Origin: Candidatus Woesebacteria bacterium GW2011_GWB1_39_10 | GTDB taxonomy: Bacteria > Patescibacteriota > Microgenomatia > UBA8517 | Assembly: GCA_000993205.1 (NCBI GenBank) | Contig: LBVU01000002.1 | Location: forward strand, 181,079-226,623 | Direction of reading: 5' to 3' | Length of the DNA: 45,545 bases | Shown: positions 17,611 to 32,939 of the stretch, piece by piece | Position numbering within the stretch: the first letter of the stretch is position 1 | Layout of the letters: each line of letters starts with the position of its first letter | Position numbers and translations under genes: made by a program | Notes under the pieces: generated by a model | What the model was told of the DNA's origin: nothing | Databases searched by the model: none | Seen by the model: only the letters and a program-made list of their open reading frames with translations

Positions 17611-17626
17611 ATTTCCAACAAATTTG

Positions 17627-17698
17627 TGCTCCCAGCAAGAATTGAACTTGCATCTTGCCCTTAGGACGGGCCTACTCTATCCGTTGAGCTATGGGAGC
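17627..17698 (-). tRNA. tRNA-Arg (CCU anticodon)
   Basis: Cloverleaf on the minus strand: acceptor GCTCCCA/TGGGAGC, D-stem GCTC/GAGT, anticodon stem core GCCC/GGGC around loop GTCCTAA (anticodon CCT), T-stem GCAAG/CTTGC with loop TTCAATT, discriminator A. CCA is not encoded. The 27-43 pair is a mismatch. It is 4 nt from a tRNA-Pro. Confidence 0.92.
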
Positions 17699-17702
17699 TT
17701 GG

Positions 17703-17774
17703 TCGGGGTGCTGGGAATTGAACCCAGTGTCTTTACGTCCCGAACGTAACGTGATACCGATTCACTACACCCCG
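17703..17774 (-). tRNA. tRNA-Pro (CGG anticodon)
   Basis: Minus-strand cloverleaf: acceptor CGGGGTG/CACCCCG, D-stem GTGA/TCAC, anticodon stem TTACG/CGTAA around TTCGGGA (anticodon CGG), T-stem CTGGG/CCCAG, discriminator A. CCA is not encoded. Probably cotranscribed with tRNA-Arg. Confidence 0.94.
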
Positions 17775-26155: not shown

Positions 26156-28747
26156 TCACATTCGTTCTGGCGACTGTATACCAAGAAGGTTCAAACCGTT
26201 TTTAAGTACTTGACCTGTTCCTGCAGTTAGTGTGAGTCTGAAATTCCCCACTTCTTCGTTTTTCGTTTTTCCTTCTTCGCTTATTATTCTATTATGAGCG
26301 TAAAAAGTATTGAATTTCGAAGCCAAATCATATAAATAATTACATAGTAAGTTGGGTGAGTAAGTTTTAGCAGCAATTGATATTACCTCAGAAAATCGGG
26401 GCAAACTTCTTAACACCGACAATTCTTCTTCGTTTAAATTACTATATGCACCTTGTAAGACCGTGTCTTTAAAGGTAGGCGCTTTTTGTATCACACTATT
26501 ACAACGAGCGACAGTGTACTGCAGATACGGGCCGGAGTTACCTTCTAAAGACAGGGAACTTTCAAAATCGAATGCAATGTCCCCGCCTATCCCTTGCTTC
26601 AAAAATGCATATTTAACGGCTCCAAGGGCAACCTGTTCTGCAATTTCGTCTTCCATATCGTGTGCGTCAAGGAGTTTTTTCCTAGCTTCGTCCAAAACCC
26701 ATTCCCCCCTGATAATTTTTCCAGTTCTACTACTCATCTTTCCTTCGGGAAGACGGACCATCCCATGTCCTATGTGTGTTGTAGCCTCTGAAAGATCCTT
26801 TTTGTACATAAATAGGGCTTTAAGGACAACGTCAAAATAGGCATCAATCTCGTTACCGGTCACGATAATCGATTTGTCATAAGGAAAATCCTTGTATTTT
26901 GCAACTGCATTGCCAAAATCTTTGGTTTCGTATGTGGGCAAATTAAGAGCATTTATAAAAACCCTATTATGCAAACCGTATTTTTCTCCAGGGAAAATTA
27001 CAGCGCCACGCTCACCCTTCTCAAAGATTCCTTTGGCCAAACCGTCCAAAACCATTCCATAGCCAAATTCTCCGGTTCTGCTTTCCGGATAATAACCATC
27101 AAACTTCATCCCAACCCTTTTATAAATTGATTCGAAATATTCCAAACTCCATGCCCTACCAATTTCATAAATATTTTTGATTTCAGAATAAGAATACTTG
27201 CCGTCTTTTTTGATATATTGATCGTAGTTTACCTGTGGAGATTCATTGAATTCCGGTAAAACCACTTCCTGCGCAGCCTTGAAGATTAAAAAATTAAGCT
27301 CTTTCATATCTTCTGCCGCAGCAGCATTTTCTTCGAAAGCTGTCGCTCCTTTTGCATAAGCTTGCCCAAAATACTCGATTCTTTCTTTTAGAGGCTTTTC
27401 GGTAAGGTCTTTAATATCAACTTTGTCCTCTGAAAACTTAAACATTAAACCCCAAATCGCCTTGGCAGCATGCATGCCAACATCGCCAAAATAATCGGCT
27501 CGCCAAACACTGGCGCCAATCGCGCTTTGCAAGCGGCTAATCGATTCACCAACCGTATTGGTATATAAATGGCCTATATGAAACTCTTTGAAGGGGTTGG
27601 GGTCGGTATATTCCACGACCACTTTTTTGCCCTTTAGAAAGTCAGATTGACCATACTTTTCTTTTTCCTCTTCAATCTGCATCAAATTACTAACTAGGAC
27701 ATCAGTTTTCAGCCAAAAATTGATAAAACCAGGGCCGTCAACTTCAATTTTGTCTACAAATTTGGATAATTCGGGAGATTTGGATAATTTGATTCTAATT
27801 TCTTCCGCCAGTTCTCTTGGGTTTTTCCCTTCGCTTTTTGCCAAAACTAAAGCAACATTACATGAGTAATCACCAAATTCAGAGTTTTCTGCAAACTCAA
27901 CATCAGCGTTATCTATCCCCAAAGTCTGATTAATTATACCCGCGATAATTTTCGCATATCCAAAATGTTCTTTTTTTACGATTTTTATAGGTTTACTTTC
28001 TCTTTTTTGTTTTAAATTATTTTGACTTATCTTCTTGGATTCAAAAGGAATTTCGACCTCGGGGTGTTCTTTGTCTAACCAATAAATTTTTCCATCTCCG
28101 CCAAAATGTTTATTTACAAGATCGAGAAATTTTGTGGCAGCTTTTTCAATGTTTTCTCTATTAACATTAGAAAACCCATCCATAATGAAATACCCGTTTT
28201 TAGAGTTTTTAGTGAGCTTGGTTCTGTCGCATTGTCTCCAATTCAAAGCCCGTGTAGAAAGGTCTAGGTCATCCCGCCAAATTAATTCGCCCTTTACTGC
28301 AGGTCTAGACTTTGTGCCACCAATCGGAATCCATTGCTCCCCTCCTTCAGCAAACTTTAGAACAAAATCACCATATAGAGAATTTAAATCCTCGCCACCG
28401 AAAGGCGTAAGATATTTGATACTTAGGGCGTTGTAGATATTAACTAGAGGATTTATATCGGGCAATTCTCCACCCTCAAGTACTCTTTTTGCCAAAGCAA
28501 CATGTGCAGGTAAAAAAACTTCCGGATCAACCCCAAACTTTTTGAATGCATCGATATAAATAGCTACTCGCTTATCTTTTACTAGTGAATCAAGGTCGAG
28601 GTTTGCACGAAGATCCGTTTCTTGCCCCCTAAGATATTTAAGTGATTCCACAGAAGACTTATTGTTATCAAAGTCCAAAATTATCGGCAAAGCCACAACA
28701 AGATTGGGGAATTTATCAAAAACTTCTTTTTCGATTTTGAATTTCAT
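26156..28747 (-). CDS. argS: Arginyl-tRNA synthetase with N-terminal B3/4 editing-type domain
   Basis: 863 residues. Residues 1-235 match the solo B3/4 domain of PheRS-beta (FGVDPEVFLPAHVALAKRVL, NIYNALSIKYLTPFGGEDL, GELIWRDD, and the hallmark ALNWRQCDRTKLT followed by GYFIMDGFSNVN). Residues 260-863 are ArgRS: the N-terminal tRNA-binding domain (EFAENSEFGDYSCNVALVLA), HIGH (EFHIGHLYTN, 390-393), KMSS (GKMSSRTGKI) and a DALR C-terminus (LYDLASKFNTFYAHNRII). It attaches Arg to tRNA-Arg. B3/4 domains deacylate mischarged tRNAs, so this enzyme probably proofreads in cis. The start at 28747 is preferred over 28765 because TATAAT ends 6 nt upstream. A family B palindrome is read as TFKDTVLQG. Confidence 0.92.
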   Translation of the reverse strand: MKFKIEKEVFDKFPNLVVALPIILDFDNNKSSVESLKYLRGQETDLRANLDLDSLVKDKRVAIYIDAFKKFGVDPEVFLPAHVALAKRVLEGGELPDINPLVNIYNALSIKYLTPFGGEDLNSLYGDFVLKFAEGGEQWIPIGGTKSRPAVKGELIWRDDLDLSTRALNWRQCDRTKLTKNSKNGYFIMDGFSNVNRENIEKAATKFLDLVNKHFGGDGKIYWLDKEHPEVEIPFESKKISQNNLKQKRESKPIKIVKKEHFGYAKIIAGIINQTLGIDNADVEFAENSEFGDYSCNVALVLAKSEGKNPRELAEEIRIKLSKSPELSKFVDKIEVDGPGFINFWLKTDVLVSNLMQIEEEKEKYGQSDFLKGKKVVVEYTDPNPFKEFHIGHLYTNTVGESISRLQSAIGASVWRADYFGDVGMHAAKAIWGLMFKFSEDKVDIKDLTEKPLKERIEYFGQAYAKGATAFEENAAAAEDMKELNFLIFKAAQEVVLPEFNESPQVNYDQYIKKDGKYSYSEIKNIYEIGRAWSLEYFESIYKRVGMKFDGYYPESRTGEFGYGMVLDGLAKGIFEKGERGAVIFPGEKYGLHNRVFINALNLPTYETKDFGNAVAKYKDFPYDKSIIVTGNEIDAYFDVVLKALFMYKKDLSEATTHIGHGMVRLPEGKMSSRTGKIIRGEWVLDEARKKLLDAHDMEDEIAEQVALGAVKYAFLKQGIGGDIAFDFESSLSLEGNSGPYLQYTVARCNSVIQKAPTFKDTVLQGAYSNLNEEELSVLRSLPRFSEVISIAAKTYSPNLLCNYLYDLASKFNTFYAHNRIISEEGKTKNEEVGNFRLTLTAGTGQVLKNGLNLLGIQSPERM
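26450..26476. repeat. In-ORF palindrome, family B, in argS
   Basis: Arms ACCTTGTAAGAC and GTCTTTAAAGGT around CGT, one base different from the copy in the M16 gene at 19699-19725. It lies at the start of the C-terminal region, where synthetases vary in length. Confidence 0.85.
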
Positions 28748-28753
28748 TTCTTT

Positions 28754-28759
28754 ATTATA
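28754..28759 (-). promoter_or_regulatory. Internal -10 box for argS
   Basis: TATAAT on the minus strand with a 6-nt gap to the ATG at 28747. It overlaps the last codons of the upstream gene, so argS could be made both from the T-box transcript and from its own leaderless mRNA. Confidence 0.55.
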
Positions 28760-29558
28760 TTCCAATCCAGTCCAAAAAATCTTGGGTAGCTTTATTTACT
28801 GTGAATTCACCATGGTCTCCATTTTTATATAATCTGAGTTTGAATTGGTTTAATTTATCCGGAAAATCTTTTTTGATAGCTCCAAGATATTTAACAGCCT
28901 TGGAATAATGAACTATATCGTCTTTTTTTCCGTGGGCGATAAAAACTCTTGCATTTTTAAGATATTTGACGTTATCCATAGGAGAAAGTCCATCCAAATC
29001 GTTTAAATGTCTCCACCACAGTTTTTTATGCCCCACAAAACCTCTATATAGATGTCTGTATCCACCCTCTTCGATTGTTCTAACAAAATCTTCATTTGAT
29101 TCTTCCGGTTTGACCTTGCCCTGCTCGCTTTGGTCTACTGCCCCACAAAAAATTCCGATTTCTTTAATTTCTTTATTAAATCTTGGCAAAAGTGGTACAT
29201 ATGTCCCACCCAAACTTTTTCCGACAAAAATGATTCTTTTATACTTAAGGAAAACTTTTGAGTTATCATACGAACCAACCCCCCTCGCCCCATATTTGAG
29301 ATGCTTATATACTAGAAGTAGTGTATTGATACAGTTTTTTGGTGTAAAAACACCATCGCTTCTGCCAAATCCCAAATAGTCGGGAACAAATATGTCAACC
29401 TTTTGTTTCAAAATTATGGAAGCTGAAGATAAATCGCCATTATCAGGCACAGTTGGGCCTCCAACTGCCCAAACCAATACGGTATCGGTTTTGTTACCAC
29501 AGGAATAATATGTTCCAACAATATTACCTATTTTTAAAGTCTTGTATTCAAATTCCAT
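28755..29558 (-). CDS. Alpha/beta-hydrolase fold protein
   Basis: 267 residues. Nucleophile elbow GKSLGG (IIFVGKSLGGTYVPLLPRF), an oxyanion-type segment VWAVGGPTVPDNGD, PDYLGFGRSDG, the acid in VFIAHGKKDDIVHYSKAV and the His in YKNGDHGEFTVNKA. Serine hydrolase of unknown substrate. It lies 2 nt after the preceding gene and its end meets argS, so it belongs to the T-box-controlled operon. A role in handling an amino acid derivative or analogue is possible but is only suggested by context. Confidence 0.82.
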   Translation of the reverse strand: MEFEYKTLKIGNIVGTYYSCGNKTDTVLVWAVGGPTVPDNGDLSSASIILKQKVDIFVPDYLGFGRSDGVFTPKNCINTLLLVYKHLKYGARGVGSYDNSKVFLKYKRIIFVGKSLGGTYVPLLPRFNKEIKEIGIFCGAVDQSEQGKVKPEESNEDFVRTIEEGGYRHLYRGFVGHKKLWWRHLNDLDGLSPMDNVKYLKNARVFIAHGKKDDIVHYSKAVKYLGAIKKDFPDKLNQFKLRLYKNGDHGEFTVNKATQDFLDWIGI

Positions 29559-29560
29559 GT

Positions 29561-30376
29561 TTATGCTTTTAATTGAACTCTGGTTAATCCTTTTAAGCTT
29601 TCGGTAAATTTAGCTATTCCAAACAACGGCTCAAATCTTTCTGCGGCAATATATATTCCTGTTGGCCCTACTATATTTGCTATATTATCATCAAACGCCA
29701 AATACCCGGCAATGAGCCAAAATGCCGCGTTGTAATCCACACCCATAGACAGAGTCCTCTCTACAGTATGTCTATTCTTTTTATTGTCGATGATGTTTTT
29801 GCCAAAATATGTATTTAGCTGGGCAATCATTTTTGATTCCGGTAAGTATTTAATACCCAGTACCTCCTGCAAATCCGTAGGGACAGTAGCTTTCGGATCG
29901 ACAAACACCGGAAATTTGACTCCCCAATCATCGTAATCTGAAAATTCGATGCCTATTTTGTTCAACCTCCCAAACCTATTCCACGCCTCGGTATATACGT
30001 CTTTGTGATGTAACAAAGCCTTTTCTTGAACTGGACCATGTTTACCAGCAAAAAGAACTCCCTTATTGGCAAAGACCATGTTAAGATGCATTTGTCCACC
30101 AAGCCCTGACAAATACCCATTCATAGCATAGATAGTAGTCATATATGCATTTACTTTGTTTGCAACTCTGGAATCCTTAATACTTGCCGGCGGTAGCATC
30201 AAAGTTGACTCGTCCAGTTTGCCGGGTGAATACAACGGACAAAGAACAACACATACTTCGATTTTTTCTCCTAATACAATTTCCCTTTTGTCGGCCACGT
30301 AAGTATCTGGCCACGACTTTTCAACTTGCGACCAGAAAACTTCCGAATGTATTTTTTGTTTTTCAAATTCAGTCAT
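29561..30376 (-). CDS. Unrecognised protein under T-box control, 271 aa
   Basis: Begins MTEFEKQKIHSEVFWSQVEK. Soluble, mixed alpha/beta, with no signal peptide or membrane helix. Notable stretches are CVVLCPLYSPGKLDESTLML, NGYLSGLGGQMHLNMVFAN, IEFSDYDDWGVKFPVFVDP, and NIVGPTGIYIAAERFEPLFG near the end. I do not recognise the family. It is the first gene after a T-box leader and a tRNA-like minihelix that ends one base before its ATG, so its expression should respond to an uncharged tRNA. Cotranscribed with the hydrolase and argS. Confidence 0.75.
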   Translation of the reverse strand: MTEFEKQKIHSEVFWSQVEKSWPDTYVADKREIVLGEKIEVCVVLCPLYSPGKLDESTLMLPPASIKDSRVANKVNAYMTTIYAMNGYLSGLGGQMHLNMVFANKGVLFAGKHGPVQEKALLHHKDVYTEAWNRFGRLNKIGIEFSDYDDWGVKFPVFVDPKATVPTDLQEVLGIKYLPESKMIAQLNTYFGKNIIDNKKNRHTVERTLSMGVDYNAAFWLIAGYLAFDDNIANIVGPTGIYIAAERFEPLFGIAKFTESLKGLTRVQLKA

Positions 30377-30921: not shown

Positions 30922-31758
30922 TTAGTTTTTATTTACCCAATATTTTTCTCCATCAGTTACAACTTCCACATCCCCCATTTCGTCAGTTCTCAAAACTTTT
31001 ACATTATATTTACCTAACAAGTCTAAAATTTCCTTATGTGGATGGCCGTAAATATTATTCTTCCCGTCACTAATTACACCCACTACCGGCCTTAATTTTT
31101 CCAGCAGGTTTTGCGTTAATCCATTCTTACTTCCATGATGATTCACTTTGAGATAGTTAACCCCTTCGACTTGGCTCAGGGTTGACAGCTCATCACTAAT
31201 TTTGTTTTCAACATCCGCTGTAAAAATAGCCTTAAATTTACCAAATTTAAGTAGATCTACGATGCCGATATTGTTAGCGTTTGGGTCTGTAAAACCAGCT
31301 GGGGGGTTAAGTATATCCAAATAGATCATTCCCACCCTAATGACTTGGCCTGCAAAGGGTCTTATGACGTTTACCCCACTACCCCCCACCACTTTCTCTA
31401 GCACTTGATAATCTAGATTGCCAGAATCAATGTCGTTATACAAATAATTGTCCAACTTATATCTTTTAAAGACCTCTATAAGCCCAAAATAGTGATCTTT
31501 CTGGGGATGAGTTGAAATTACGAGTTCTATCTCCCGGTCCCAAAAAGGAATATGTTTACCTAAACATTCCAAGACTTTATTATCCGGCCCTCCATCGGTT
31601 AAAATTTGAATATTTTTATAAGTAACAAGAATTGCATCCCCCTGACCAACATCGCAAGCGATGATATGAAGATTGCTGTCTGGCAGTTGAAAAAGTGCAA
31701 TGACAATAAGCGCAAGAATCATTAATAAAAAAATGAAAATGTTGTTCCAGAATTTCAT
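30922..31758 (-). CDS. ComEC-type metallo-beta-lactamase-fold protein (stand-alone)
   Basis: 278 residues. One N-terminal membrane helix (NIFIFLLMILALIVIALFQL), then the MBL domain of ComEC: IIACDVGQGDAILVTYKN, ILTDGG, STHPQKDHYFGLIEVFKRY (metal-binding motif), FTADVENK and LKVNHHGSKNGL. In most bacteria this domain is the C-terminal part of one ComEC polypeptide. Here it follows the channel part as a separate gene, with a MITE-like repeat between them. It probably degrades or processes incoming DNA outside the membrane. A family C repeat is read in frame as TLSQVEGV. Confidence 0.88.
   Translation of the reverse strand: MKFWNNIFIFLLMILALIVIALFQLPDSNLHIIACDVGQGDAILVTYKNIQILTDGGPDNKVLECLGKHIPFWDREIELVISTHPQKDHYFGLIEVFKRYKLDNYLYNDIDSGNLDYQVLEKVVGGSGVNVIRPFAGQVIRVGMIYLDILNPPAGFTDPNANNIGIVDLLKFGKFKAIFTADVENKISDELSTLSQVEGVNYLKVNHHGSKNGLTQNLLEKLRPVVGVISDGKNNIYGHPHKEILDLLGKYNVKVLRTDEMGDVEVVTDGEKYWVNKN
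31162..31181. repeat. Short palindromic element, family C, in the ComEC-MBL gene
   Basis: CCCTTCGACTTGGCTCAGGG, the reverse-oriented relative of the element at 1036-1055. Confidence 0.6.
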
Positions 31759-31803
31759 AATTTATACGAGTTTCAAATTTAATGCCGTTGCAAACGTTTT
31801 ATT

Positions 31804-31875
31804 GTCATTGCGAGTCATACGAAGCAATCTATTTCGCTTAGGATTGCCACGTCACCTACGGCTCCTCGCAATGAC
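31804..31875. repeat. MITE-like palindromic repeat, copy 2
   Basis: 72 bp from GTCATTGCGAG to CTCGCAATGAC, with inner GAAGCAATCT and GGATTGCCACGTCACC. It occupies the gap between the two halves of ComEC, ending 5 nt before the stop of the channel gene. Confidence 0.88.
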
Positions 31876-31880
31876 ATCAA

Positions 31881-32939
31881 TTAATTAAAAATTGCGACGA
31901 TCTTAACAAACCAATATAACAAAGGATAAGTTAGCAACAAGATCAACTTTCCTAAAAATGGAAAAATTAATCCCACAATCCCCCCAATGCTTCCTATGAT
32001 CATAATACCGGGAACCGTCCAAAGAACTAAAGCGTTAATCAAGGGAGACCATATATTAAACTGTCCAAATGTAACAAACAGTATCGGAGCCACACCAATT
32101 TGAGCCGCGAGAGAGGTGGAAAGTCCCTCTCTAAGAAACTTGGGTATCTTAAGTAACTTAGAATGAATTCTTTTTTCGAAAAGTATAAGCGAGGCCGTAG
32201 AGACAAAAGATAAAATAAAGCCAATGTCGACTATCCAACCAGGATTATAGATAAGCATCAGACCTGCGGTAATAAATAGAACGCGCCAGGTAGACACCAA
32301 CCTGCCAGTTTCTTGTCCTAAAAATAAGACTGAAGACATTATTGCCGCACGAATCAAAGGCGCATCAAAACCCGATATAAAAAGATATAAAATAATACCT
32401 ACTATAGCAAACACTATCGCTTTTCTCCTGGTCAAGAACAATGTAAGAACTCCCATCAGAAATGAAACAACAAATGTAACATTCGCTCCTGAAGCTACAA
32501 CTACGTGCGCCACGCCTGCGAGTTTTGTCTGATTATAAAAATCAGGTGAAAGCGCTCCTTTGGCGCCTATTACGATTCCACCCAAAAGTCCCCCTTCCGG
32601 TTCCGGTAAAACTTCTTGATAAAAAGAAATTATTGAATTTCTGATACCGGAAAAAAAGGTCTTTCTATCCTCTATTTTGACAAGTTTAGAATTTTTTAAT
32701 TTTCCATTATTAACGGTTCCTTCTACAACAATTTTGTCACCGTATGAAATTTCCGGAAAAAGCGGAAGATAAGTTGCCAGTCCCGCAACTTTTAAATATT
32801 GGGAAGAGGGGTAACGGACGGGGTCGGACATTACCGTAGTTGTTATACGGACTCGGTCGCCGGTGTGGTAAACAGGACGGGTGGTTAGATACCTTACAAA
32901 AATTAATAATAAAAGTATGGGCCAGATGAGATGTTTCAT
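31881..32939 (-). CDS. comEC: ComEC channel part (OB-fold and competence domain)
   Basis: 352 residues. An N-terminal membrane helix is followed by an OB-fold-like region (DRVRITTTVMSDPVRYPSSQ, YGDKIVVEGTVNNGKLKNSK), then the Competence domain with GLLGGIVIGAKGALSPDFYN, LAGVAHVVVASGANVTFVVS, FDAPLIRAAIMSSVLFLGQE, and several membrane helices. It forms the DNA uptake channel for transformation. The MBL part is encoded separately downstream. The partner ComEA is the next gene upstream, separated by another MITE copy. Confidence 0.92.
   Translation of the reverse strand: MKHLIWPILLLLIFVRYLTTRPVYHTGDRVRITTTVMSDPVRYPSSQYLKVAGLATYLPLFPEISYGDKIVVEGTVNNGKLKNSKLVKIEDRKTFFSGIRNSIISFYQEVLPEPEGGLLGGIVIGAKGALSPDFYNQTKLAGVAHVVVASGANVTFVVSFLMGVLTLFLTRRKAIVFAIVGIILYLFISGFDAPLIRAAIMSSVLFLGQETGRLVSTWRVLFITAGLMLIYNPGWIVDIGFILSFVSTASLILFEKRIHSKLLKIPKFLREGLSTSLAAQIGVAPILFVTFGQFNIWSPLINALVLWTVPGIMIIGSIGGIVGLIFPFLGKLILLLTYPLLYWFVKIVAIFN

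Follow-up and report, generated by a model that had tools for sequence, protein, structure and literature searches.

A CtdA-like B3/4 domain fused to arginyl-tRNA synthetase in Patescibacteria: a candidate cis-editing enzyme

A stretch of 45,545 nucleotides from Candidatus Woesebacteria bacterium GW2011_GWB1_39_10 (contig LBVU01000002.1, positions 181,079 to 226,623; below, the window) carries a gene that joins a B3/4 domain, a type of domain found in the editing part of phenylalanyl-tRNA synthetase beta (PheRS-beta), to a complete arginyl-tRNA synthetase (ArgRS). The gene lies on the minus strand at 26156-28747, with an ATG at 28747 and a stop codon at 26158-26156, and its 863 codons specify a single protein of 863 residues (P0001). 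An earlier note on this DNA had placed the gene correctly and named no strand. The features of the gene are as follows.

26156..28747, minus strand: whole fusion gene, B3/4-linker-ArgRS, 863 residues (open reading frame, Pfam, NCBIfam); the only ArgRS gene of the genome
28043..28747, minus strand: B3/4 (CtdA-like) domain, residues 1-235 (PF03483, E 9.9e-19; PDB 9f7e and 9mkl by sequence and fold)
28430..28432, minus strand: N106, aligned through the conserved TN..H motif with the water-positioning Asn250 of Thermus thermophilus (Tt) PheRS-beta
28391..28393, minus strand: E119, which among aligned positions has the highest mutual information with the identity of the synthetase partner
28211..28243, minus strand: motif NWRQCDRTKLT, residues 169-179; NWRQ is common to CtdA
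27962..28042, minus strand: charged linker, residues 236-262, with disorder predicted for 244-261 (pLDDT below 50)
27713..27952, minus strand: ArgRS N-terminal domain (Arg_tRNA_synt_N), residues 266-345 (PF03485, E 1.2e-19)
26564..27676, minus strand: ArgRS class I catalytic domain (tRNA-synt_1d), residues 358-728 (PF00750, E 4.9e-25)
26159..26524, minus strand: ArgRS DALR anticodon-binding domain (DALR_1), residues 742-863 (PF05746, E 2e-30)

All four Pfam domains score above their curated cut-offs. The B3_4 match covers residues 68-206 (68 bits against a cut-off of 29.3), while the synthetase, complete in residues 266-863, reaches 351.9 bits with the NCBIfam argS equivalog TIGR00456 (cut-off 261.65), and its class I motifs are intact (HIGH at residues 390-393, KMSSR at 670-674). 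The earlier note had described about 235 N-terminal residues of B3/4 type bearing the hallmark NWRQCDRTKLT, a charged linker and a complete ArgRS, and each part of that description is borne out. A domain of a hydrolytic editing family and a synthetase core thus reside on one polypeptide, which is the architecture expected of a cis-editing synthetase. Separate translation of the two halves can be rejected, as no stop codon intervenes and the sole in-frame start within residues 201-300 is a TTG at residue 276, which already lies inside the ArgRS and has no Shine-Dalgarno-like sequence.

A model of P0001 was built with AlphaFold2 from an alignment of 46 sequences (a single-sequence model, with a predicted local distance difference test score, pLDDT, of 34.5, was discarded). 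Mean pLDDT was 91.9 and the predicted template modelling (TM) score, pTM, was 0.72, with values below 50 pLDDT confined to residues 244-261 of the linker. In a Foldseek comparison of this model with the PDB, ArgRS structures ranked highest, followed for the N-terminal domain by CtdA (9f7e and 9mkl), with TM-scores of 0.86-0.89 over the target and root-mean-square deviations of 2.3-2.9. The sequence of the N-terminal domain, searched against the PDB with E up to 10, matched only the same two entries (9.5e-24 and 2.3e-21). The outcome that by the earlier note would have spoken against a B3/4 domain, no B3/4 match or a different fold for residues 1-235, did not arise, sequence and fold both being of CtdA type, and a chance match can be rejected because hidden Markov model, PDB, fold and phylogenetic support are independent.

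CtdA is the stand-alone canavanyl-tRNA-Arg deacylase of Pseudomonas canavaninivorans (Hauth 2023, PMC10018355), and is the protein to which the earlier note had correctly referred without naming it. It deacylates canavanyl-tRNA-Arg, spares arginyl- and homoarginyl-tRNA-Arg and does not require ArgRS; a homologue from C. perfringens, 35% identical, likewise prevents canavanylation (PMC10018355). The window domain shares with CtdA the B3/4 fold, the motifs GGE(D/N) and NWRQ, its place in the tree and, presumably, tRNA-Arg as substrate. It differs in being covalently joined to ArgRS, whereas CtdA is a separate, trans-acting protein. As it forms a single frame with ArgRS and does not stand alone, we refer to it as a CtdA-like domain and not as CtdA.

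The phylogenetic analyses comprised a first B3/4 tree and an ArgRS tree, both from quick searches, and a B3/4 tree with CtdA from a careful search, in which the CtdA rows are fragments of about 147 residues. Eight domains, that of the window among them, make up one clade (support 100/99); seven of the eight are attached to ArgRS and one is a solo protein encoded next to argS. Together with the domain of locus L139, this clade is sister to a group made up of CtdA and of solo NWRQ proteins from Pseudomonadota, Deinococcota and Cyanobacteriota; in the careful tree the joint clade has an ultrafast bootstrap of 95 and an SH-aLRT support of 97. The ArgRS halves of the same proteins do not form one clade: forcing their monophyly costs 502 log-likelihood units (approximately unbiased test, p = 5e-91), and in the quick tree the closest neighbours of the window ArgRS are family members that carry no B3/4 domain. 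Closely related B3/4 domains are thus found on four or more unrelated lineages of ArgRS. The strong conflict between the two trees therefore indicates that B3/4 and ArgRS were paired, or swapped partners, more than once, whether by repeated fusion, by domain exchange or by both.

The N-terminal domain was searched against two samples, one of 374 genomes from the class and one of 380 from the phylum, and most matching frames were fetched and classified. The N-terminal B3/4-ArgRS fusion recurs in 24 of the sampled genomes: the class sample contributes 16, counting that of the window, and the phylum sample a further 8. Among the 24, one fusion is cut at a contig end (L041), one is split between contigs (L089) and one has a frame break near its end (L078). 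In those fusion carriers that were checked, a second full ArgRS was looked for and not found. A chimaeric metagenome-assembled genome or other assembly artefact is rejected, since the same architecture is present in 24 genomes and the carriers checked have no other full ArgRS. There are also genomes where B3/4 and ArgRS are encoded by neighbouring genes: in five (L070, L105, L149, L156, L157) argS is immediately preceded, on its own strand, by a solo B3/4 gene, the two open frames overlapping in the last three, and in a sixth (L141) a solo B3/4 gene lies near argS. Among the matches listed, those annotated as plasmid are solo-type B3/4 proteins, and those from phages cover the ArgRS part only.

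The asparagine at position 106 aligns with Asn250 of Tt PheRS-beta, one of three residues (the others being Thr249 and Thr354) that are reported to hold the catalytic water in place (PMC12447630). It is kept in 22 of the 24 ArgRS fusions and in all 27 fusions to other synthetases described below. The window domain shares this residue, the Pfam family and the hydrolytic fold with that of PheRS-beta, a class II enzyme that edits Tyr-tRNA-Phe; the sequences are very divergent, and Gly117 stands in place of the adenine-stacking histidine (His275 in the enzyme of M. tuberculosis). Aligned position 119 is glutamate in 22/24 ArgRS fusions and in both CtdAs, and in none of the 27 other fusions, where it is Phe, Tyr or Met in 18/19 LysRS fusions (mostly Phe or Tyr; Asp in L140) and His in 5/6 TyrRS fusions. 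At position 172, 23/24 ArgRS fusions have Gln or Glu and 18/19 LysRS fusions have Asp. The ranking by mutual information omitted the pattern-breaking loci L161, L169 and L140, which are included in these counts. Positions 119 and 169-172 would, to judge from the alignment, lie in the substrate pocket.

B3/4 domains were also seen on other synthetases of the phylum. A C-terminal B3/4 domain occurs on class-I LysRS at the 12 loci read (L035, L036, L092, L095, L097-L099, L101, L102, L107, L154, L164), a fusion common in the class, with motifs GAFD and NYRD in place of GGED and NWR(Q/E). Class-II LysRS carries B3/4 at or near the C-terminus at 7 loci (L091, L103, L140, L155, L158, L160, L162); some of these add HD, tRNA_bind or DUF2000 domains, and L140 has an Arg-type B3/4 domain (D119, NWRE). 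TyrRS has an N-terminal B3/4 at 6 loci (L093, L100, L151, L159, L166, L167), one MetRS has a C-terminal copy (L168:2980-5415), and one TrpRS (L163:1900-4158) follows both a B3/4 domain and an editing domain of another family, tRNA_edit (YbaK/ProX type). Several genomes hold two fused synthetases (Arg and Lys-I in G145, Arg and Lys-II in G207, Tyr and Lys-II in G415 and G637, Tyr and Met in G573), and each synthetase bears its own B3/4 type; in G145 and G207 the Arg domain has E119/E172 and the Lys domain F119/D172. We think it somewhat more likely than not that the B3/4 hydrolase has served in Patescibacteria as a plug-in proofreading module, which ArgRS, LysRS-I, LysRS-II, TyrRS, TrpRS and MetRS would each have acquired on one or more occasions, with the pocket (119, 169-172) retuned for each partner; these synthetases would then have a dedicated cis-editing domain of a type undescribed for them.

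A different explanation is that B3/4 is a broad trans-acting aminoacyl-tRNA deacylase which works on other tRNAs and is merely tethered to ArgRS. CtdA does function without ArgRS, and other members of the fold family are attached to the synthetases for Lys, Tyr, Trp and Met; but the B3/4 subgroup differs with the synthetase even inside one genome, as in the Arg and Lys pairs just described, and the solo genes adjoin argS, so that we hold this explanation to be improbable.

We favour, with a good degree of confidence, a process where P0001 acts as an ArgRS with its own cis-acting post-transfer editing domain, which would rid tRNA-Arg of canavanine or of an analogue like it. The ArgRS core would charge tRNA-Arg and would misload it when the amino acid is a close analogue of arginine, canavanine being the most probable one. 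The mischarged tRNA would then swing its 3' end out of the class I active site and over to the B3/4 domain, which hangs at the N-terminus on a flexible linker of about 20 residues and where a positioned water would hydrolyse the ester and where E119 and the NWRQ residues may read the guanidino side chain. We infer the hydrolysis, the identity of the tRNA as tRNA-Arg and that of the substrate as canavanine; in support are the architecture, the CtdA-like sequence and fold, the place in the tree beside CtdA, the Asn250-equivalent asparagine and the repeated coupling to ArgRS by fusion or neighbourhood. That the fusion edits some mischarged tRNA-Arg is probable. Kinship with CtdA and the shared motif put canavanine first among the candidates, and we lean towards its being a substrate in vitro; that it is also the main natural pressure on the fusion is a tentative proposal.

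Several observations weigh against this interpretation. With a pTM of 0.72, the model does not predict how the B3/4 and ArgRS parts are placed towards each other, as would be expected of a flexible tether. The genes for CtdA are frequently, though not universally, controlled by a guanidine riboswitch, whereas no guanidine-I riboswitch (RF00442) was found across the genome and no Rfam regulator near the fusion gene or elsewhere in the window, so the link of CtdA to canavanine and guanidine is not seen here; nor was anything found that connects the source organism to canavanine. The pattern at residue 119 follows a few clades, amounting to one or two phylogenetically independent contrasts, too small a number for a statistical test, and is therefore a lead and not statistically independent evidence. 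Two ArgRS fusions (L161, L169) have neither E119 nor N106, and four of the six solo proteins encoded beside argS, those of L149, L156 and L157 among them, have no E119. Since these residues are missing, such Arg-coupled domains may have another role or substrate, or their editing function may have been lost or changed.

The degenerate pockets of L161 and L169 would suit a non-catalytic module that docks tRNA and raises the affinity for it, as would the tRNA-binding domains commonly appended to synthetases and the adjacency of B3/4 to tRNA_bind or DUF2000 in some LysRS-II fusions. We think a docking module a poor explanation, as most fusions keep the pocket-motif residues (N106 and E119, each in 22/24) and the solo relatives are enzymes (PMC10018355). 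A less remote prospect, though still an unlikely one, is that the domain edits another amino acid on tRNA-Arg (a different arginine analogue, lysine, ornithine or citrulline) and that canavanine is incidental. The missing canavanine link in the genome, the several Arg-coupled domains that have no E119 and a possible difference in substrate between NWRQ and NWRE subgroups speak for it; the placement on the CtdA side of the tree, the E119/NWRQ signature common to both and the failure of CtdA to edit homoarginyl-tRNA speak against it.

The source genome (1.08 Mb, 17 contigs, 97% complete) was searched for a second full ArgRS and none was found, the fusion being its only ArgRS; one further B3/4 domain is present, within PheRS-beta. 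A genome of the same genus has an unfused ArgRS (L013), 54% identical to that of the window. Two genes lie upstream of the fusion.

28755..29558, minus strand: alpha/beta hydrolase-like gene (PF00326, E 1e-7), its stop a few nucleotides before the fusion start
29561..30376, minus strand: second upstream gene, 271 residues, no Pfam family (open reading frame, Pfam search)

The hydrolase-like gene probably shares a transcript with the fusion, and the 271-residue gene is probably the first of that transcript, which would end with the fusion. A long terminator-like hairpin (30475-30429) precedes both, such matches being no commoner in the region than in shuffled sequence. The Amesbacteria B3/4-ArgRS fusion has directly 5' to it a 487-residue open frame (L003:3518-4981) that differs from the upstream genes of the window. 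Elsewhere in the window, genes for tRNA-Arg(CCT) and tRNA-Pro(CGG) adjoin at 17626-17774 (minus strand), and 30922-32939 (minus strand) encodes a Competence domain of ComEC type and, as a gene of its own, a metallo-beta-lactamase-like protein, perhaps a split ComEC.

Among class I enzymes, IleRS, LeuRS and ValRS have built-in post-transfer editing by way of the CP1 insertion. The proposed activity of P0001 is of the same kind, cis post-transfer editing by a class I synthetase, but CP1 has an unrelated fold, and the B3/4 domain of the window protein is N-terminal. The ArgRSs of E. coli (5yym) and P. horikoshii (2zue, archaeal) have the same ArgRS domains, HIGH and KMSSR motifs and C-terminal fold of about 600 residues as P0001, which has about 265 residues ahead of them, whereas known ArgRSs have no editing domain (PMC10018355). 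ArgRS has been described with neither an editing domain nor, before CtdA (2023), an editing partner, and fusions go unmentioned (PMC10018355). No description of B3/4-synthetase fusions was found in a search limited to open papers and to substitute terms for 'B3/4', so that support for novelty is weak. P0001 would represent the transfer of a CtdA-like editing domain into a synthetase.

If our interpretation is true, editing of tRNA-Arg would belong to housekeeping translation in bacteria whose genomes are among the smallest, beyond a response to legume toxins, because the domain is built into the sole ArgRS. Residues that vary with the partner hint at a code by which B3/4 domains attain their specificity, and the LysRS, TyrRS, TrpRS and MetRS fusions predict editing activities for these enzymes as well. 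With six kinds of synthetase having captured B3/4, these natural domain swaps make it directly testable which synthetases require editing and what they must be guarded against.
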